Source of the DNA: Haloferax larsenii JCM 13917
GTDB lineage: Archaea; Halobacteriota; Halobacteria; Halobacteriales; Haloferacaceae
Direction: 5' to 3'
Assembly: GCF_000336955.1 (NCBI RefSeq)
Contig: NZ_AOLI01000014.1
Span: forward strand, 289,884 to 328,870
Length of the DNA: 38,987 nt
Shown here piece by piece: positions 9,764-19,096 of this stretch (its first letter is position 1; every line of letters begins with the position of its first letter). The notes under the pieces are model-generated. The model searched no databases. It worked only from the letters and a program-made list of their open reading frames with translations, and was not told where the DNA came from. The position numbers were made by a program, and so were the translations under genes.

Positions 9764-11101
9764 TCAGGCGGCCCGAAGCCGAAACACTCCTTCAGGAACG
9801 TGGTTTCGAACCGTCTGGGCGAGGTTCACGACGAACGCGACAGCACCCATCGCTACGAGACCGCCCCCGACGACAGTCATCACGCCAGTTGCTGGTTCAC
9901 CGAGTCCGACTGCCCCGAGAAGTACGACAGTCCCGCCAACGAGAAGCAGGAAATCGGTCAGTGCAACGTCGGCTCTGTAGAGGTCGTCGAGCATCGGGAC
10001 CGGTCGTCGCCCGAGGTCGTCGCTGTAGCGGTCGACCCAGACGATGAACGGCACGACGTGATAGAGGGTTCCGAAGACGACGAATCCGACGACACCGAGA
10101 CCGAAGAGTAGGGTTGCGCCCGGCGGTCCAAAGAGGGTCGTTCGACTGAGTGGAGATGCGACCCACGTCGCACCGGCGGTGAGCGCCCAGACGACCATCG
10201 CGACGACAGCGACGGCATACCGCCGGAGAACTGGCGACCACGGGACTCGCATCCGGCGGAGTAGCCCGGCGGTTGCTCCGGCGAATGCCAACGTCGCGGC
10301 GACGATTGCGAGGCCGCCGACGAGTGCCACCCATTCGACACCGAGGAGTCGACCACCTGCAAATACGACCGTTCCGGTCGGGTGAAGCAGCTCTTCGACC
10401 TGTCTGAGCCGACGCCCCCACGCCGAGTGCGTCGTCTGCGTGAACATCTCCGATAGCTGCCCGAACGCCCCGAAGATTGTCGTCAGGACGATACCGAAGA
10501 CGGCCACCGTCGCATGCGAGAGGACGACGTTCGAGCGATTCAGACCCGCGTCACGGAGCACTGGGGTGGTGAAGTCGACCGCGAGCAAGAAGCCGAGAAG
10601 CGTCGCGAGCACGAGAAAGCCGAGTGCGTACGCGAAGTGTCGCTCCACGCTGTCGAACGGCCGTGCGCTGGCGAGCGTCCGGGCGATGTTGTACGCGAAC
10701 ACCCAGAAGCCGACGAGAGCAACCGCCCCCGATAGTGCGAGCGAGTCGAACGCGCCGGTGGAAAAGCCCGCGACGAGACCTGCAACACCGGCGCTCACGA
10801 GTCCGAGTGCGACGTACGCTAATCGTCGAGAGTGCAGGTTCACGCTTGACCAGACGGGGACGAACTGTGTCATCGCACCCATGATGGTGAGACAGACCCA
10901 GCCGACGAGGAGGGCGTGAACCTGGGCGACGTGGGCGAACACCAACCTTCCACCGACGATGGGGAGCTGCCCACCGAACACCGAGATACCTCCGAGTCCG
11001 ATACCAGCGAGAAGGAAGACGGTGGCCACCGCGAAGTGGTGAAACGGGATTGCTATCGGTGGCCCCCCGTCGGTGTCGACTTCGGCGAGAATCGCGCTCA
11101 T
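9764..11101 (-). CDS. Heme-copper-oxidase-like / NnrS-like membrane protein
   Basis: This 445-residue polytopic protein has about 12 predicted TM helices. Histidine pairs in helices suggest heme and/or metal ligation: IPFHHFAVATVF at the N-terminus, FAHVAQVHALLVGW, LSHATVAVFG and LYHVVPFIVW. It resembles the stand-alone oxidase-subunit-I-like proteins of the NnrS group found with denitrification genes. A CGAACGTGTTCG palindrome (11139-11150) lies about 43 bp before the start, tying it to the neighbouring nitrogen-oxide genes. A role in NO response or copper/heme handling is inferred. It lacks the full catalytic motif set, so it is not an obvious terminal oxidase. Confidence 0.8.
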   Translation of the reverse strand: MSAILAEVDTDGGPPIAIPFHHFAVATVFLLAGIGLGGISVFGGQLPIVGGRLVFAHVAQVHALLVGWVCLTIMGAMTQFVPVWSSVNLHSRRLAYVALGLVSAGVAGLVAGFSTGAFDSLALSGAVALVGFWVFAYNIARTLASARPFDSVERHFAYALGFLVLATLLGFLLAVDFTTPVLRDAGLNRSNVVLSHATVAVFGIVLTTIFGAFGQLSEMFTQTTHSAWGRRLRQVEELLHPTGTVVFAGGRLLGVEWVALVGGLAIVAATLAFAGATAGLLRRMRVPWSPVLRRYAVAVVAMVVWALTAGATWVASPLSRTTLFGPPGATLLFGLGVVGFVVFGTLYHVVPFIVWVDRYSDDLGRRPVPMLDDLYRADVALTDFLLLVGGTVVLLGAVGLGEPATGVMTVVGGGLVAMGAVAFVVNLAQTVRNHVPEGVFRLRAA

Positions 11102-11138: not shown

Positions 11139-11150
11139 CGAACGTGTTCG
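11139..11150. promoter_or_regulatory. CGAAC-N2-GTTCG site for NnrS-like gene
   Basis: CGAACGTGTTCG, extended to CCGAACGTGTTCGG, is centred about 43 bp upstream of the NnrS-like start codon at 11101. It is one of seven such sites in this island. Confidence 0.75.
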
Positions 11151-11207: not shown

Positions 11208-12365
11208 TTAGAGTTCGTAGCCCGCGTACTCCATCAGCTTCTTGAAGATGTCGGTGTCCATCGCCTCTTTGTAGACGACGCCACCGAGCATGCCACCGGG
11301 GTAGAAGTTCCCGTTCATGACGTGGTTGACCTTGTGGCAGTGCATGAGGTAGATTCCGGGTTCAGCGTCGGCCGTGAAGTCGATGGTGTGGCGCTCTGCG
11401 GGTGCGATGTTGGTCACGTCCATCTCGTAGCGGGCCGCTTCGGGAATCACGCCGCCGTCCTTCTCGGTGAGTTGGAAGCGGTGGTTGTGGATATGCATGG
11501 GGTGGCTCATGTACCCCGCGTTGACGAAGTGGAGACGCACGTGGTCTCCCTGCTCGACGATGACCGGCGAGCCGTCTTCGGGGTGGAGCGTTCGCGGGGC
11601 GCTCTTTCCGTTGACGGTGAACACGTCGGATTTGCGGTTCCGCGGGTTGTACTGTACGTTCTCTCCGGCCATCATCCGGGGAAGGCGTGAATCCCAGTCT
11701 CTGAGCGTGAAGAAGTGTTCCTTGTCGGCAGGCTCGTAGCCCTTCGGGTCGACACGGAAGATACCGTACATCCCCATCTCGATGTGTCGGTGGGTCTGGT
11801 AGTGACAGTGATAGAGGTGCGTCCCGGGGACGTTCGCCGGGATGGTGTAGGTGTGTTTCTCACCGGGGTCGACGCGGATGCCCGTCGTCGTCGGCACACC
11901 GTCGTCCTTCCACGCCTTGCGTGCGCCGTGGAAGTGGAGCGTGTGTGCACGCATCCCGTCGGTGTTGTCGAGCGTGACCTCCATGTCCTCACCTTCGGTG
12001 GTTCGGAGAATCGGGCCGGGAACACTCGGATTGCCGTCGTCGGCTTGGAACGCCCACACCTGCGGGAGTTCGACGGGACCACCCATCGACTCACCCGGGT
12101 GGACAGCGTGCCGCGCGGGTGTCGAAGAGATAGTCACCTTTCCGCCCTGCTCGTCCACGTTCACGACTTCCGGCGGACTCGTGTACGGAAGCTCGGATGC
12201 GCTCGTCGACGCGGGGGTCTGTTGCTCCGTTTCGATGGCGGCGTTCGACCCGCCGTTGGTGGGTGCAGTGCACCCTGCGAGACCGACAGCACCGGCGCTA
12301 CCGGTCGCCGCGAGAAATTCTCTGCGAGACATCGTCGAACCAGGGGCGCCTACGTATTTTCTCAT
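11208..12365 (-). CDS. Two-domain multicopper oxidase, possible copper nitrite reductase
   Basis: This is a 385-residue exported copper protein. The N-terminus has a Tat motif (SRREFLAATG, 13-22) and lipobox GLAGC (Cys32). Domain 1 carries HTLHFH (His141, 144, 146) and HCHxxxHxxxxM (186-197). Domain 2 carries HPMHIH (288-293) and HCHxxxH (342-348) with Asn, not Met, at the axial position. The eight His of a trinuclear centre are thus present, plus one or two type 1 sites, so the layout is that of a two-domain multicopper oxidase, not classical NirK. The context (NO reductase, halocyanin, shared promoter palindromes) argues for nitrite reduction or a linked copper redox step. An alternative ATG at 12332 begins MSRREFL. 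Confidence 0.88.
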   Translation of the reverse strand: MRKYVGAPGSTMSRREFLAATGSAGAVGLAGCTAPTNGGSNAAIETEQQTPASTSASELPYTSPPEVVNVDEQGGKVTISSTPARHAVHPGESMGGPVELPQVWAFQADDGNPSVPGPILRTTEGEDMEVTLDNTDGMRAHTLHFHGARKAWKDDGVPTTTGIRVDPGEKHTYTIPANVPGTHLYHCHYQTHRHIEMGMYGIFRVDPKGYEPADKEHFFTLRDWDSRLPRMMAGENVQYNPRNRKSDVFTVNGKSAPRTLHPEDGSPVIVEQGDHVRLHFVNAGYMSHPMHIHNHRFQLTEKDGGVIPEAARYEMDVTNIAPAERHTIDFTADAEPGIYLMHCHKVNHVMNGNFYPGGMLGGVVYKEAMDTDIFKKLMEYAGYEL

Positions 12366-12432: not shown

Positions 12433-12444
12433 CGAACATGTTCG
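12433..12444. promoter_or_regulatory. CGAACATGTTCG site upstream of multicopper oxidase
   Basis: This is a perfect 12-bp palindrome centred 73 bp before the multicopper oxidase ATG at 12365, a distance shared with the NO reductase. It is also 178 bp upstream of the divergent HTH gene at 12622. Confidence 0.75.
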
Positions 12445-12621: not shown

Positions 12622-12996
12622 ATGCCAACAAATCCGCTGTCAGACGCTCTCGAACCGGACTTCCAGACGGTGTTCGACGCGCTGACGAACGAACAGTGCC
12701 GTACGGTACTGAGTGGGCTCGACCATCCGATGACCGCCAGCGAAATCGCCGAGGAGTGCGACCTCCCGCGGTCGACCGTGTACCGAAAGGTGGAGCTGAT
12801 GGTCGAAGCCGGATTGCTTCAAAAACAGGAACGCGGTCGCGAGGCGGCGCGGTACTCGTTGGGATTCGACGAAGTGCTCGTCACACGCGAGCCTGGAGAC
12901 CTCGAACTCTCCATTTCACGTCCGTCACAATCTGCGTCCGAACAGCTGTCGGAACTCTGGTCTGAGGTTCGCAACGAGGCAGACCCGAACCGGTGA
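12622..12996 (+). CDS. Small winged-helix transcriptional regulator
   Basis: This 124-residue protein has an N-terminal HTH (about 15-85). DALTNEQCRTVLSGL leads into the recognition segment MTASEIAEECDLPRSTVYRKVELMVEAGLL, then a wing with ARYSLG. It matches haloarchaeal ArsR/TrmB-like winged helices. The C-terminal 40 residues are short and acidic, with no ligand domain. It is divergent from the multicopper oxidase and convergent with the HTH_10 regulator gene, inside the denitrification island, so it may regulate that island. The target is not shown by the sequence. Confidence 0.88.
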   Translation: MPTNPLSDALEPDFQTVFDALTNEQCRTVLSGLDHPMTASEIAEECDLPRSTVYRKVELMVEAGLLQKQERGREAARYSLGFDEVLVTREPGDLELSISRPSQSASEQLSELWSEVRNEADPNR

Positions 12997-13044: not shown

Positions 13045-13686
13045 CTACTCTAGGCCGACATCGTCGTCCGCGAGGAACTCTTTCATGACTTTGCCCTCGG
13101 CCCGATGTAACTTTTCGCTCGTCGTCGACTTCGCGAGGCCGACCGAGTCAGCGAGTTCTGTGAGTGTACAGGTTCGTGGTGTGTCGTAGTAGCCGCGATT
13201 GGCCGCGGTTTCGAGCAGTTGTCGCTGGTCTTCTGTCAGGAGTGACTCGGTGTCGATAGACTGTCGAATCGACACGAGGTCGAACGGGATGCCGAACAGT
13301 TCGAGCTTCTCGCCGAGGTCGGACAGCTTCTCTCGGGGTGCCGTAATCTCGACTGTCACCTCGCCGTCGGAGATTGTAATCGGCAGTTCGAGTGGGATGC
13401 CCACCTCGCTCAGAGAGAGGATGAGAAGCGGTTCTGTCGTCTCGAACTGGACGAGTGCGCGGTTCGGCTGAGCTTCCAGAATGTTCACCGAGAGGACGGA
13501 GTCGTACCCGTCCATCGCCGTCACGACGTGTTCGATTTCGTCGGACTGTATCTCGACCAACCCGACACCGGTTTCGTCCGCTGGCATCGCCGCGAGGACC
13601 GTGAACTCGGCATCGGAATACTGGCGCGAGAGGTCGGAAACCCAGACTTCTGAAGGCAGCGTGATAGAGAGATTGGCGCGTGGCAT
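13045..13686 (-). CDS. HTH_10 (Bat-type) regulator of denitrification island
   Basis: This 213-residue regulator has a C-terminal HTH_10 domain (about 155-213). LLTEDQRQLLETAANRGYYDTPR is followed by TLTELADSVGLAKSTTSEKLHRAE. The N-terminal half is a beta-rich sensor-like domain. The only cysteine is in the HTH (RTCTLTEL). The cysteine cluster reported for the haloarchaeal denitrification activator NarO is therefore missing, and this is a paralogue rather than NarO itself. It is divergent from the NO reductase gene, and a CGAACATGTTCG site lies 48 bp before its start, so it is itself under the island's control. It may sense NO or another effector; that is inference. Confidence 0.9.
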   Translation of the reverse strand: MPRANLSITLPSEVWVSDLSRQYSDAEFTVLAAMPADETGVGLVEIQSDEIEHVVTAMDGYDSVLSVNILEAQPNRALVQFETTEPLLILSLSEVGIPLELPITISDGEVTVEITAPREKLSDLGEKLELFGIPFDLVSIRQSIDTESLLTEDQRQLLETAANRGYYDTPRTCTLTELADSVGLAKSTTSEKLHRAEGKVMKEFLADDDVGLE

Positions 13687-13728: not shown

Positions 13729-13740
13729 CGAACATGTTCG
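13729..13740. promoter_or_regulatory. CGAACATGTTCG site in regulator/nor divergent promoter
   Basis: This is a perfect palindrome centred 48 bp upstream of the HTH_10 regulator start (13686, minus strand). A second site for the nor side is at 13809. Confidence 0.75.
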
Positions 13741-13808: not shown

Positions 13809-13820
13809 CGAACATATTCG
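13809..13820. promoter_or_regulatory. CGAACATATTCG site upstream of nor
   Basis: One half-site differs by a single base from the perfect palindrome. It is centred 72 bp before the chosen ATG of the NO reductase at 13887. It is identical to the minus-strand reading of the halocyanin site. Confidence 0.75.
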
Positions 13821-13886
13821 CCCCGTGTCCGAAGATTGGTAGTCGGCGTCTGCTCTTTTTCACCCAGTTTTCGAACGCCCACTTGT

Positions 13887-16175
13887 ATGAAAGTCTCTCG
13901 ACAAACTCTCTGGAGGCTCTTGGCGGCGGTCTTCGTCGTGAACCTCGTCGTCATGGGTCTCGGAGCATGGTACTCAGCACAGCAAGCACCGCCCATACCG
14001 GACGAAGTCGTGGGCCCGGACGGCGAGTCGCTGGCGACGGGTGCCGACGTCCGTCAGGGGAAAGTCGTCTTCCAACAGAACGGCTTGATGAATCACGGGT
14101 CGATACTGGGTAACGGCGCGTACTTCGGGTCCGACCTCACCGCGGAAGCCCTCGACATGAAAGTCGAGTACATGCGCGACTACTACGCCCGAGAGAAGTA
14201 CGGGACATCCTTCTCGGACCTCGATGCAGACGCGAAGGCGGCGGTTAGCGACCAAGTCCGCCGCGAACTCGACTCGGCAGTCGGCCGCGCAGGGACGATT
14301 GAATACTCCGCCGCCGAGATGTACGCTCACGAACAGGTCCGCGAGCGATACGTGGAACTGTATCACGAGGGCGAACTCGAACGTGGGATTCCCTCGGGGA
14401 CCGTGAGCGACGAAGCAGAAGCACGACGCCTCGCCGACTTCGCGATGTGGACCGCGTGGTTCTCGCACGCTGACCGGCCGGGAAGCGACCACTCGTACAC
14501 CAACGAGTGGCCGTACCAACCTGCTGCAGGTAACGAGCCCGCCGGAGCCACGATGACGTGGAGCGTCATCGCCATGGTATTGCTCGTCGCTGGCGCTGGC
14601 ATCGGCGTCTGGCTCTACAAGTCCGTCGAGCTTCCGGAACCAAAGACCGGCGCTGTCGACGTGCCGCACCCGCGGGATGTCGCACTCACGCCGAGTCAGC
14701 GGGCAGCGAGTCGATACGTGCCAATCGCGGCGTTGTTGTTCGTCGTACAGGTCATGCTTGGGGGGCTTCTCGCCCACTACTACATCGAGCGTGACGGGTT
14801 CTTCGGGCTCGGAGAACTGCTCGGCATCGACTTCCTCTCGATTCTTCCGTTTTCGATGGCGAAGACGCTGCACCTCGACCTCGGCATCCTCTGGATTGCG
14901 ACCCTCTGGCTCGGTGCGGGGTTGTTCCTCCCGCCACTCTTGACGGGGTACGAACCGAAGAATCAAGACCGCTACGTCAACGGGCTGCTCGTCGCGCTCG
15001 TCGTGGTCGTCGTCGGTGGGATGTCTGGTATTTGGTTGGGCGCGAACGGCTACATCGACGGCCAGCTCTGGTGGATTCTCGGCAACGAGGGCTTGGAGTA
15101 CCTCGAAGTCGGTCGCTTCTGGCAGTTCGGGCTCCTCGCCGGGTTCCTCATCTGGGCAGGCCTCGCCGCACGCGGGTTCAAGCCGCTTCTGGACAAGGAA
15201 GCGCCCTACGGCCTCGCGCACATGATACTCTACGCCGGTGGGTCGATTGCGCTCCTCTTCACCGCTGGACTCCTCTACACGCCGCAGACGAACATCGTGA
15301 CGACCGAGTTCTGGCGCTGGTGGGTCGTCCACATGTGGGTCGAAGGCGCGTTCGAGTTCTTTATCATCGCCGTCGTGTCGCTCACGCTGGTCAGCATGAA
15401 TCTGCTGTCTCGGCGGTCGGCCGAAAAGGCAGTCGCGTTCGAGGCGCTGTTCGTGATGGGAACGGGAGTCATCGGCGTTTCGCACCACTACTGGTGGGTC
15501 GGCCAGCCCGACGTGTGGCTCCCGCTCGGGAGTATCTTCTCGACGCTGGAGCTCATCCCGCTCGTGCTCATCCTCTTCGAAGCGATGAACGAGTACCGGA
15601 CGCTCGCCACGAGTGGCGAGTCGTTCCCCTACACGCTTCCGTTCATGTTCATCATCGCGAGCGGTGTGTGGAACTTCGTGGGCGCTGGCGTCCTCGGGTT
15701 CTTCATCAACCTCCCGCTCGTGAACTACTACGAACACGGGACGTACCTGACGGTCGCACACGCTCACGCCGCGATGTTCGGGGCCTTCGGGTTCCTCGCG
15801 CTCGGCATGGCGACGTACATCCTCCGGCTGACCGTCTCCCCCGGGCAGTGGGTTGAGCGTCGCCTCCGGTGGGCCTTCTGGCTCTGGAACGCCGGCCTCG
15901 CGCTCATGGTTCTGGTGTCGCTTCTGCCGGTTGGCTTCCTCCAGTTGGAAGTCGCGTTCACTCAGAGTTACGCCGCGGCGCGGAGCCTCGAATTCTACAA
16001 CGGTGGTCTCGTACAGGCGCTGTTCTGGGCACGACTGCCCGGTGACACGCTTCTCATCGCCGGGACCATCGTGTTCGCGTACGACGTGGTGAAAAAGCGG
16101 TTCGTCCTCAGGGAGACGAGCGACGTTCCGGCGCGGACGCCAGTCTCAGACCAGGTCATGTCTGACGACGACTGA
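13887..16175 (+). CDS. norB: Quinol-type nitric oxide reductase, single subunit
   Basis: This 762-residue membrane enzyme reduces 2 NO to N2O with electrons from the quinol/halocyanin pool. One TM is followed by an extracellular domain (about 35-215) replacing the NorC cytochrome c part, with no CxxCH heme motif, as in qNor. About 12 helices of the heme-copper core follow. Visible ligands and key residues: HLDLG (about 329), HMWVEG with the NOR-type Glu (about 482-487), SHHYWW (about 532) for the binuclear site, and AHAHAAMFG (about 624). I chose the ATG giving MKVSRQTLWR because upstream frames are non-coding. It is also called norZ in haloarchaea. It is divergent from the HTH_10 regulator with two palindromes between. 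Confidence 0.96.
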   Translation: MKVSRQTLWRLLAAVFVVNLVVMGLGAWYSAQQAPPIPDEVVGPDGESLATGADVRQGKVVFQQNGLMNHGSILGNGAYFGSDLTAEALDMKVEYMRDYYAREKYGTSFSDLDADAKAAVSDQVRRELDSAVGRAGTIEYSAAEMYAHEQVRERYVELYHEGELERGIPSGTVSDEAEARRLADFAMWTAWFSHADRPGSDHSYTNEWPYQPAAGNEPAGATMTWSVIAMVLLVAGAGIGVWLYKSVELPEPKTGAVDVPHPRDVALTPSQRAASRYVPIAALLFVVQVMLGGLLAHYYIERDGFFGLGELLGIDFLSILPFSMAKTLHLDLGILWIATLWLGAGLFLPPLLTGYEPKNQDRYVNGLLVALVVVVVGGMSGIWLGANGYIDGQLWWILGNEGLEYLEVGRFWQFGLLAGFLIWAGLAARGFKPLLDKEAPYGLAHMILYAGGSIALLFTAGLLYTPQTNIVTTEFWRWWVVHMWVEGAFEFFIIAVVSLTLVSMNLLSRRSAEKAVAFEALFVMGTGVIGVSHHYWWVGQPDVWLPLGSIFSTLELIPLVLILFEAMNEYRTLATSGESFPYTLPFMFIIASGVWNFVGAGVLGFFINLPLVNYYEHGTYLTVAHAHAAMFGAFGFLALGMATYILRLTVSPGQWVERRLRWAFWLWNAGLALMVLVSLLPVGFLQLEVAFTQSYAAARSLEFYNGGLVQALFWARLPGDTLLIAGTIVFAYDVVKKRFVLRETSDVPARTPVSDQVMSDDD

Positions 16176-16978: not shown

Positions 16979-17515
16979 CTATTCGACGACCACTGCCCCC
17001 TTCATCCCGAGTGTCTCGTGGGGGACACAGGAGTACTTGTAGACGCCCGCGCTCTCGAAGGTGTATTCGAACGTGTGACCTTCGTCGCCGACGAGCTCGG
17101 ATTCGAACTCACCGTCGGTGTGGACGACGTTGTGGGTGCCGCCCTTTCCGTTCCACGTCCACGTGACTGTGGTCCCCTTCGAAACGCGGACCGCCGCGGG
17201 ACCGAAGCCGAACGCGCCGCCGTTGGCCTCGACGCCGACATCGACTTCGACGGCGTCCGAACCAGTCTCGTCGACGACACCGTCGAAATTCTCGACGTCG
17301 TCGAACCAGCCATCAAAGTTCTGCGTTCCACCTGCTGCACCACTATCACTGCCCGAGGAGTCGCTCGTCTCCGTGTTCTCGGCTGGAGCCTCAGCCGTCT
17401 CTGGGTCCGAGGCAGCATCGCCGCTGGAACCTGTACAGCCAGCGAGTGCGGCCGAGATGGAAGTCGTCGCGACGAGTGCAGTAAACCGCCGTCTGCTGAG
17501 TCCAGTAGATGTCAT
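16979..17515 (-). CDS. Halocyanin (blue copper lipoprotein)
   Basis: This 178-residue protein is an electron carrier on the outer face of the membrane. The N-terminus has a Tat motif (SRRRFTAL) and lipobox ALAGC (Cys27), then an acidic Ser/Glu linker. The C-terminal cupredoxin domain (about 85-178) has all type 1 copper ligands: His in GGTHNVVH, then Cys, His and Met in YSCVPHETLGMKG. It probably carries electrons to the copper oxidase/nitrite reductase or the NO reductase of the same island. A palindrome (17558-17569) lies about 48 bp before its start. Confidence 0.95.
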   Translation of the reverse strand: MTSTGLSRRRFTALVATTSISAALAGCTGSSGDAASDPETAEAPAENTETSDSSGSDSGAAGGTQNFDGWFDDVENFDGVVDETGSDAVEVDVGVEANGGAFGFGPAAVRVSKGTTVTWTWNGKGGTHNVVHTDGEFESELVGDEGHTFEYTFESAGVYKYSCVPHETLGMKGAVVVE

Positions 17516-17557: not shown

Positions 17558-17569
17558 CGAATATGTTCG
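17558..17569. promoter_or_regulatory. CGAAC-type palindrome upstream of halocyanin
   Basis: The minus strand reads CGAACATATTCG within an 18-bp near-palindrome flanked by CCC/GGG (17555-17572). It is centred 48 bp upstream of the halocyanin ATG and just past the stop of the radical SAM gene. Confidence 0.75.
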
Positions 17570-17581
17570 GGGCGTATCTCG

Positions 17582-18697
17582 TCAGTCGTCGCTCGCCCGA
17601 CCGGCTGGCATCGGACCGTCGTAGTCAGTCGGGACGTAGTCGCACAGCGGGTCGCTCGCCAGTGGGTCGCCGGTGTGGGCGTATGCTCGGGACCGGCTGC
17701 CGCCGCAGACGTGCCGGAACTCGCACGCGCCGCACTTTCCGCTGAATTGGTCCGGGTCGCGAAGCGACTGGAAGAGGTCGCTCTCGCGGTAGCGTTCTAC
17801 GAGACTCGATTCGCGGACCGACCCTGCCGACTTCGGGAGGAACCCCGACGGATAGATGTCTCCCGTGTGGCTGACGAATGCGAAACCGTTGCCGGCGATG
17901 ATGCCCAGTCGGCGGCCGATACCGTCCACGTCAGGTGCGTCGGTCGAGTCGCGGCGGCGTTGAATCGCCACGCGGCGGTAGTGGGGCGCTTCGGTCGTCT
18001 TCACGCCGAACGGTGCTTCCTCACTCACCTCCGTGAGCCACGAGAGGATTCGCTCGGCACGCTCGGGAGTCACCGGGTCGAGGATGCGACCGCGACCAAC
18101 CGGGACGAGGAAGAACACCGACCAGAGCACCGCGTCGAGGTCGGCCACGAGGTCACGAATCGCCGGGAGTTCGTCGGCTGTCTGCGCGCAGACGGTCGTG
18201 TTTATCTGGAGTGGCACGCCGGCCGCCCGCGCTGCACGGGCCGCTTGCACTGTCTGCTCGAAACTCCCGTCTTCGCCACGGAAGGAGTCGTGGGCCGCCG
18301 GACTCCCGCCGTCGATACTCAAAGCGAGTCGCTGAATCCCGGCGTCACCGAGGTCACGAACCGTCTCGGGCGTGAGCGACGAGGTTCCGCTGGGCGTCAG
18401 CGTCATCCTGAGTCCCTGTTCAGTCCCGTACTCGACGAGTTCCGTGAGGTCTGACCGTGCCAGTGGGTCGCCCCCGGAGAGAACCACGAGTTGCCCGGGA
18501 CCGAACTCGCTGGCTTCGTCGAGCAATCGCTTGCCCTCTTCGGTGGTCAGTTCGTCGGGGTGTCGCGCCGGGGTCGCGTCCGCCCGACAGTGGTCGCACG
18601 CCAGGTCACAGGCCTGTGTGACTTCCCACACGAGGACGAACGGACGGCGACTCGTGTCGATAGCGGTGGGGTCCGGTCCGCGAGATGGGCGAGACAT
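17582..18697 (-). CDS. Radical SAM/SPASM protein of the denitrification island
   Basis: This 371-residue protein has the radical SAM cluster motif as CDLACDHC (CxxxCxxC) near residue 30, then SGGDPL and LSIDGG. A C-terminal SPASM-like segment (about 320-360) has GKCGACEFRHVCGGSR and a final Cys in DPLCDYVP, for auxiliary iron-sulfur clusters. It belongs near the AhbC/AhbD/NirJ-like and TIGR04053-type proteins, which act in heme or heme d1 synthesis or peptide modification. Here a role in heme supply for NO reductase is plausible, not proven. ATG at 18697 is preferred over the in-frame GTG at 18703. A palindrome lies 48 bp upstream. Confidence 0.88.
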   Translation of the reverse strand: MSRPSRGPDPTAIDTSRRPFVLVWEVTQACDLACDHCRADATPARHPDELTTEEGKRLLDEASEFGPGQLVVLSGGDPLARSDLTELVEYGTEQGLRMTLTPSGTSSLTPETVRDLGDAGIQRLALSIDGGSPAAHDSFRGEDGSFEQTVQAARAARAAGVPLQINTTVCAQTADELPAIRDLVADLDAVLWSVFFLVPVGRGRILDPVTPERAERILSWLTEVSEEAPFGVKTTEAPHYRRVAIQRRRDSTDAPDVDGIGRRLGIIAGNGFAFVSHTGDIYPSGFLPKSAGSVRESSLVERYRESDLFQSLRDPDQFSGKCGACEFRHVCGGSRSRAYAHTGDPLASDPLCDYVPTDYDGPMPAGRASDD

Positions 18698-18739
18698 AAT
18701 CACTCGACTGTTTCGACCGACACCCAGTGAACCACGTGG

Positions 18740-18751
18740 CGAACATGTTCG
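18740..18751. promoter_or_regulatory. CGAACATGTTCG site upstream of radical SAM gene
   Basis: This is a perfect palindrome centred 48 bp before the ATG at 18697 (minus strand). It lies in the divergent promoter shared with the DUF2249 gene. Confidence 0.75.
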
Positions 18752-18785
18752 CCTATCGCGGTGTTCGACGCAGCAGCCCCCACGT

Positions 18786-18797
18786 CGAACATCTTCG
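18786..18797. promoter_or_regulatory. CGAACATCTTCG site upstream of DUF2249 gene
   Basis: This palindrome has one mismatch and is centred 44 bp before the DUF2249 ATG at 18836. AACTATCT at about -30 could be the TATA box of a leaderless transcript. Confidence 0.7.
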
Positions 18798-18835
18798 GGG
18801 AGAACTATCTACGATTTCCCGCCGATTTTTCGACC

Positions 18836-19096
18836 ATGGATGTGGAACCGCTTCTGCAGGAGGCCGATGCACCGACCGGGAAGGCTATCGAATTCCTCGA
18901 CGCGCGCGACCTCCCGCCGCCGGAACCGCTGACGAAGACGATGAACAGCCTCGCGGAACTCGACTCGGAGACGGTCTTCGTCCAACTGAACGACCGCGCG
19001 CCGAAGTTCCTCTTCCCCAAACTCGACGACCGGGGGTTCGACTATCGGACCGTCGAGACCGACGACGGGACCGTGACGGCGATTTGGCGGCCGTAG
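18836..19096 (+). CDS. DUF2249 protein
   Basis: This 86-residue protein fits DUF2249 over nearly its whole length: LDARDLPPPEPLTKTMNSL, then VFVQLNDRAPKFLFPKLDDRGFDY. DUF2249 proteins are small TusA-like or SirA-like folds that often sit with nitric-oxide and denitrification genes; their chemistry is not settled. I start at MDVEPLL rather than the upstream in-frame ATG at 18761, because that extension would run through the regulatory palindrome. Divergent from the radical SAM gene. Confidence 0.87.
   Translation: MDVEPLLQEADAPTGKAIEFLDARDLPPPEPLTKTMNSLAELDSETVFVQLNDRAPKFLFPKLDDRGFDYRTVETDDGTVTAIWRP

Follow-up and report, generated by a model that had tools for sequence, protein, structure and literature searches.

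A predicted type A two-domain multicopper oxidase in Haloferax larsenii, probably an accessory of haloarchaeal denitrification and not its nitrite reductase

The type A arrangement has been proposed as an early one in the evolution of two-domain laccases, copper nitrite reductases (CuNIR) and larger multicopper proteins. Two-domain oxidases with type 1 copper sites in both domains are assigned to this type (PMC13151041), and Ausec et al. (2011; PMC3192119) report genes of the class solely in Archaea, after Nakamura's prediction, with examples listed from Halobacterium NRC-1, Haloarcula marismortui, Halogeometricum and Haloterrigena. In the literature we found no type A member that had been purified or whose structure had been solved, nor any biochemistry on one. 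In Haloferax mediterranei, one study describes a protein of the nir–nor cluster that is annotated as a copper nitrite reductase, is 23.3% similar to NirK, and in nitrate-grown anaerobic cells reached a proteomics intensity above those of Nar and Nor; its authors regarded it as a likely copper oxidoreductase and suggested a role in electron transfer, and HFX_2180, a 440-aa COX-type protein, was likewise detected by proteomics (PMC7754194). From the same species, a promoter study reports the motif CGAAYATDKTYG at the nirK, nor and nosZ promoters (at 79, 66, and 69 nt, respectively), mutations that support its function at nor and nosZ, its presence at 83 promoters (i.e., not exclusively at those of denitrification), and a motif-bearing multicopper oxidase, E6P09_RS00725 (PMC10062603), which is probably the same gene as that of the nir–nor copper protein.

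Here we analyzed a multicopper oxidase gene of Haloferax larsenii JCM 13917 in its surroundings, a window of 38,987 nucleotides (the whole stretch of DNA studied), which holds the following features.

9764..11101, minus strand: 445-aa membrane protein with a heme-copper oxidase subunit I fold, next gene on the oxidase strand (model; COX1 in relatives)
11208..12365, minus strand: predicted type A two-domain multicopper oxidase, 385 aa, ATG start (ORF, Pfam, ligand conservation, AlphaFold2 model, closest folds)
12270..12329, minus strand: Tat motif (SRREFL) and lipobox (LAGC) of the oxidase, a predicted exported-lipoprotein signal
12433..12444, no strand: CGAACATGTTCG, the denitrification promoter motif, an exact palindrome 68–79 nt upstream of the oxidase start (motif scan)
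12622..12996, plus strand: divergent winged-helix regulator (Pfam HTH_20), often adjoining the oxidase in other genera
13045..13686, minus strand: HTH_10 regulator of the bacterio-opsin activator/NarO type (Pfam HTH_10, BAT); motif at 13729–13740
13836..16175, plus strand: norB, quinol-type nitric oxide reductase (Pfam COX1 and NorB_cytochrome_c-like), ATG probably at 13887; motif at 13809–13820
16979..17515, minus strand: halocyanin (TIGR03102, 152.7 bits); motif at 17558–17569
17582..18703, minus strand: TIGR04053 radical SAM protein, heme-synthesis-like (family match); motif at 18740–18751
18761..19096, plus strand: DUF2249 protein (Pfam DUF2249)

The E6P09_RS00725 locus of H. mediterranei has the same constituents as the window (HTH_10 regulator, halocyanin, nor, DUF2249 protein, 440-aa COX-like protein, and motif), and because the gene order matches, the H. 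mediterranei nir–nor copper oxidoreductase is likely the counterpart of our oxidase. A trinuclear set or type A class is not part of the published description of that gene in the sections consulted (PMC7754194, PMC10062603), and neither a type A analysis of its ligands, nor persistence of its motif across genera, nor class-wide co-occurrence turned up in the literature covered, which is incomplete. A DUF2249-type protein is induced during H. mediterranei denitrification (PMC11218638). Within H. larsenii, plasmid pHl5678-2 carries an oxidase copy that is 99.7% identical, in a gene order identical to that of the window, and close relatives (84–86% identity) are found in Haloferax species.

The 445-aa neighbor resembles HFX_2180 in size, context and fold class. 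Its model matches cbb3 CcoN (Z 34.0) and NOR (Z 32.7), and its relatives match COX1 (E 1.2e-6); the window copy itself had no Pfam match, hhalign against norB gave nothing, and its profile matched no solved chain by sequence. As few histidines are conserved (H62, H155, H196, and H348 are invariant in 12 relatives), the protein is possibly a degenerate oxidase or a single-heme electron carrier. A one-mismatch copy of the palindrome lies before its gene, at 11139–11150, and another at 18786–18797.

The oxidase chain comprises two cupredoxin domains, as seen from Pfam matches far beyond chance (Cu-oxidase_2, E 1.9e-30; Cu-oxidase_3, E 2.3e-21) and from the model and its fold matches over residues 73–384. 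Preceding these is the Tat/lipobox signal, of which R14, R15, G31, and C32 are kept in 96 of 98 homologues (the remaining two have gaps), so the oxidase is probably exported and lipid-anchored, with this topology predicted from the signal. The copper-ligand motifs are placed as follows.

11928..11945, minus strand: domain 1 HxxHxH, H141-T-L-H144-F-H146; H141 type 1, H144 and H146 trinuclear (conservation, alignment)
11769..11810, minus strand: domain 1 H186-C187-H188...H194...M199, invariant, unlike H192
11487..11504, minus strand: domain 2 HxxHxH, H288-P-M-H291-I-H293; H288 type 1, H291 and H293 trinuclear (conservation, alignment)
11289..11342, minus strand: domain 2 H342-C343-H344...H348...M359, with N353 variable (conservation, alignment)

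A sequence-only reading of this gene had proposed HxxHxH and HCHxxxH sets in both cupredoxin domains, predicting a trinuclear center and one or two type 1 sites. We followed ligand conservation first in 81 sequences (the window and named genomes) and then in a set of 98 that extends to diverged members of 51% identity, and at the sequence level both sets are confirmed and near-invariant. Specifically, every one of the 98 homologues has H141, H186, C187, H188, H194, M199, H288, H291, H293, H342, C343, H344, H348, and M359; H144 and H146 are kept in 97/98, all but a frame with a stop (locus L121). The eight histidines of a putative trinuclear cluster (H144, H146, H186, H188, H291, H293, H342, H344) are thus all present, and of type 1 sites there appear to be two, both with an invariant Cys (C187 and C343): the domain 1 His/Cys/His/Met set (H141, C187, H194, M199) and the domain 2 His/Cys/His set (H288, C343, H348) are each complete in 98/98, and M199 is the full axial Met that had been read in domain 1.

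The trinuclear and type 1 sets of that assignment therefore stand; two single residues do not. The third His of the domain 1 'HCHxxxH', H192, differs in 22/98 homologues (mostly Q or P), while H194 is invariant and is aligned to the type 1 His found in both NirK and type C oxidases, which makes H194, and not H192, the likely type 1 ligand of domain 1. The Asn proposed as the domain 2 axial ligand, N353, occupies the canonical axial position (Cys+10), and was rejected as a conserved ligand because across the 98 homologues the residue there varies widely (T, N, G, D, S, R, and others); in this domain M359 is again invariant, and M350 is kept in 83/98 and replaced in 15/98. The Asp of the 'DG' loop (D155) is also invariant (98/98) and is absent in NirK; in multicopper oxidases this loop is linked to O2 reduction (D94 of Fet3p), and the stretch that includes it (residues 152–159) is one where the model is uncertain.

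Broken or split copies of the oxidase, with internal stops or in separate pieces, were seen in five haloarchaeal genomes, L121 among the copies, which suggests repeated loss.

How does this ligand set compare with those of described families? When solved and genomic reference sequences were aligned with it, the oxidase family alone showed Cys in both domains. The type C oxidases (the Nitrosomonas europaea BCO, 3g5w, and a metagenomic laccase, 2zwn) are the closest solved relatives by sequence and fold and have the same domain 1 type 1 set; however, they have Cys in domain 1 only, with Asp where the oxidase has C343, and the oxidase, with a domain 2 Cys and both His, falls outside type C. Type B two-domain oxidases share the domain 2 HCHKxxH type 1 arrangement, yet bacterial type B-like oxidases have Cys in domain 2 only, and the full type 1 set in domain 1 likewise places the oxidase outside type B. 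The AlphaFold2 monomer model (mean pLDDT 84.7, pTM 0.84) matched 3g5w (Z 31.1, rmsd 2.7, 280 residues aligned) and 2zwn (Z 30.7, rmsd 2.4, 278 aligned), followed by NirKs and other two-domain oxidases (Z about 26–29). The predicted 'type A two-domain laccase' of Nakamura, as presented in the consulted parts of PMC3192119, is like the present oxidase in coming from haloarchaea and in combining a type 1 site in each domain with a trinuclear set; those parts give no denitrification link for the type A genes, and their match to the present loci is by class and host organisms. A member from Halobacterium salinarum falls inside the oxidase clade, and one encoded on a plasmid of H. marismortui shows 73% identity. 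By its ligand residues, then, the oxidase is assigned to the type A two-domain multicopper oxidases, a class previously predicted from haloarchaeal sequences, and among the identities that had been floated for it the 'ancestral-type two-domain oxidase' is supported.

With CuNIR (NirK, AniA) the oxidase has in common the fold, the domain 1 type 1 set, the export signal and the regulon; it differs in lacking the catalytic Asp and in having a domain 2 Cys and the extra trinuclear ligands. The column of the NirK catalytic Asp (type 2 site) holds H144, and at the columns of H188, H288, H293, H342, C343, and H348 NirK has A, S, I, V, D, and R; other trinuclear ligands of the oxidase fill positions that bind no copper in NirK, and the set is, as had been noted, unlike the usual one of that enzyme. 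A phylogeny with NirK and two-domain oxidases, which had been suggested as a check, resolved the oxidase family as one clade and NirK as another (100/99 each) among 44 sequences, in a tree whose long branches leave the order between groups unsure; the oxidase thus lies outside NirK. Its score against the NirK family model TIGR02376 was 66.6 bits, vs a cut-off of 296.3, and a search for a canonical nirK in the same genome found one (contig C15, 357 aa, with HNVDFHA and HCAV signatures), on the contig that also carries nosZ. On these grounds NirK identity was rejected, and with it the nitrite reductase option of the sequence-only reading.

We next consider the promoter. The window contains five exact CGAAYATDKTYG sites (10 strand-matches vs 0.12 expected), before the oxidase, the HTH_10 regulator, norB, and the halocyanin, with the fifth between the radical SAM and DUF2249 genes. 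Its edges lie 68–79 nt from the start codon for the oxidase, 67–78 nt for norB, and 81–92 nt for nirK. Across 80 homologous loci—from related genomes, such that counts are not independent—an exact motif occurs ≤350 nt upstream in 18, vs 0.04 expected under a Markov model and ~1 given how often the motif occurs in the background of these loci. The palindrome with ≤2 mismatches is found at -65 to -115 in 55/80 loci vs 2/80 in a control interval at -200 to -250, a criterion that about 2% of shuffles match. Motif-bearing loci include ones where neither norB nor nirK is nearby, and among the 80 the motif is absent at most Haloarcula chromosomal, Halococcus, and Halovenus oxidase loci. From this motif at promoter distance, we predict that the haloarchaeal denitrification regulon includes the oxidase.

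Close proximity to other denitrification genes, on the other hand, is confined to some genera, as among the 80 named loci norB lies ≤10 kb away in 13 and nirK in 7, and one clade is mostly in metal islands. A winged-helix regulator is found ≤10 kb away in 44/80 loci (≤2.5 kb in 33/80), and a blue copper protein ≤2.5 kb away in 35/80. The clade in question (16 rows, support 100) is found mostly in islands that also hold CtaA, DsbA/B, heavy-metal P-type ATPases, and CDF, some of them plasmid-borne, and also has the motif, in a weaker form. Within such CtaA/DsbAB/metal-ATPase islands, again in part plasmid-borne, three sets of identical oxidase proteins (two, three, and three loci) occur in different genera, which looks like recent horizontal spread of a metal island across haloarchaea. 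Separately, the norB matches of eight Haloferax genomes contain one internal TGA, probably an alignment overrunning a slightly earlier C-terminal stop.

Co-occurrence was assessed in 391 Halobacteria genomes (genus unknown for 15), from match lists transcribed by hand and with oxidase cut-offs chosen after the E-values were seen: E ≤ 1e-190 for close homologues (n = 161) and E ≤ 1e-160 for a wider set (n = 197). At the stricter cut-off, 150/161 oxidase genomes also have nirK or norB, with odds ratios of 9.3 for nirK and 10.4 for norB (8.7 and 26 when stratified by genus); at the wider one the odds ratios are 9.6 and 8.1 (stratified, 9.3 and 15.7). Between nirK and norB themselves the odds ratio is 6.5 (stratified, 7.7), and the association of nosZ with the oxidase is weak (1.4–1.9; stratified, 2.7–3.5). 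The possibility of a phylogenetic or genome-abundance artefact was addressed by the genus strata and by a patchy control, Bac_rhodopsin, whose odds ratio was 0.74–0.89 (<1 when stratified). The oxidase is present in 76–86% of genomes with both nirK and norB, 29–43% with one, and 9–17% with neither; about one in ten oxidase genomes lacks both genes (22/197 or 11/161), and no positive association is seen for genomes whose only members are diverged ones (E 1e-100 to 1e-160). The link to denitrification in the sequence-only reading is thereby backed twice, by the promoter motif (55/80 vs 2/80) and by class-wide co-occurrence with nirK and norB.

Taken together, we consider it reasonably probable that the oxidase is an exported type A enzyme of the denitrification regulon that plays an accessory part in the nitrite-to-NO-to-N2O stage (NirK and NorB) and is not the nitrite reductase. 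By analogy with other two-domain oxidases it would form a homotrimer, with a trinuclear cluster where domain 1 of a subunit meets domain 2 of its neighbor and, from the ligand residues, one type 1 copper per cupredoxin domain. A small donor—halocyanin, Cu(I), or NO—would supply electrons to the type 1 coppers, from which the His-Cys-His links would carry them to the cluster; there O2, the default acceptor, would most likely be reduced to water. Such an enzyme may clear residual O2 at the onset of anoxia, oxidize NO or Cu(I), or move electrons. Three observations count against this overall reading, namely that the sense of an O2-using enzyme in a regulon induced by low oxygen is not obvious, that about one in ten close homologues belongs to a genome without nirK and norB, and that the clade in plasmid islands with metal transporters points to copper handling.

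The last of these observations leads to an alternative that we regard as unlikely, in which the oxidase has a CueO/CopA-like role, oxidizing Cu(I) outside the membrane and protecting copper enzymes such as NirK, and its denitrification linkage reflects copper demand. Besides being favored by the metal islands of that clade, it is in keeping with the view of the H. mediterranei authors, who suspect copper homeostasis for other denitrification-induced multicopper oxidase operons (PMC11218638). However, a metal ATPase lies ≤2.5 kb from the oxidase in 1/80 loci and ≤10 kb in 15/80, and NosZ, the other copper enzyme of denitrification, is weakly associated (odds ratio 1.4–1.9 overall), norB strongly, though its product needs no copper. 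NorB is a heme/non-heme iron enzyme. As the nosZ association is weak and that of norB strong, we consider a function in the nitrite/NO stage more likely than one in general copper supply, and copper supply for NosZ in particular is disfavored.

A comparably doubtful alternative is that the oxidase handles NO directly, as an NO oxidase (NO to nitrite) or an NO reducer at the trinuclear cluster, and acts as a safety valve between NirK and NorB. Its presence tracks the pair that makes and consumes NO (76–86% vs 29–43% vs 9–17%), norB is locally linked in some genera, and the promoter motif is held in common. Ceruloplasmin, for which NO oxidase activity (NO to nitrite) has been reported, likewise has several type 1 sites. 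Yet any accessory of the nitrite/NO stage would be expected to give the same pattern across genomes. That the oxidase is a second NirK is very improbable: database records do label relatives 'copper-containing nitrite reductase' (PMC9240420, PMC7754194) and the fold is the same, but H144 in place of the catalytic Asp, the trinuclear ligands, the separate clade, the TIGR02376 score, and the canonical nirK all speak against it, as does the finding that only 17–19 of 52 norB+ nirK- genomes hold the oxidase, by which a replacement NirK in nirK-less genomes was rejected as well.

These data imply that haloarchaeal genes annotated as extra 'copper-containing nitrite reductases' need a check of their ligands before they are counted as NirK. 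With the oxidase read as a probable accessory of the nitrite/NO stage, the type A class is now connected with a pathway and with a promoter motif, and this in a genus, Haloferax, that is tractable, which makes its function directly testable. One possibility, which we consider unlikely, is that haloarchaeal denitrification includes an extra copper enzyme, a type A oxidase that acts on NO (to nitrite with O2, or by reducing NO) between NirK and NorB; if true, it would give the predicted ancestral class its first member whose physiological role is known.
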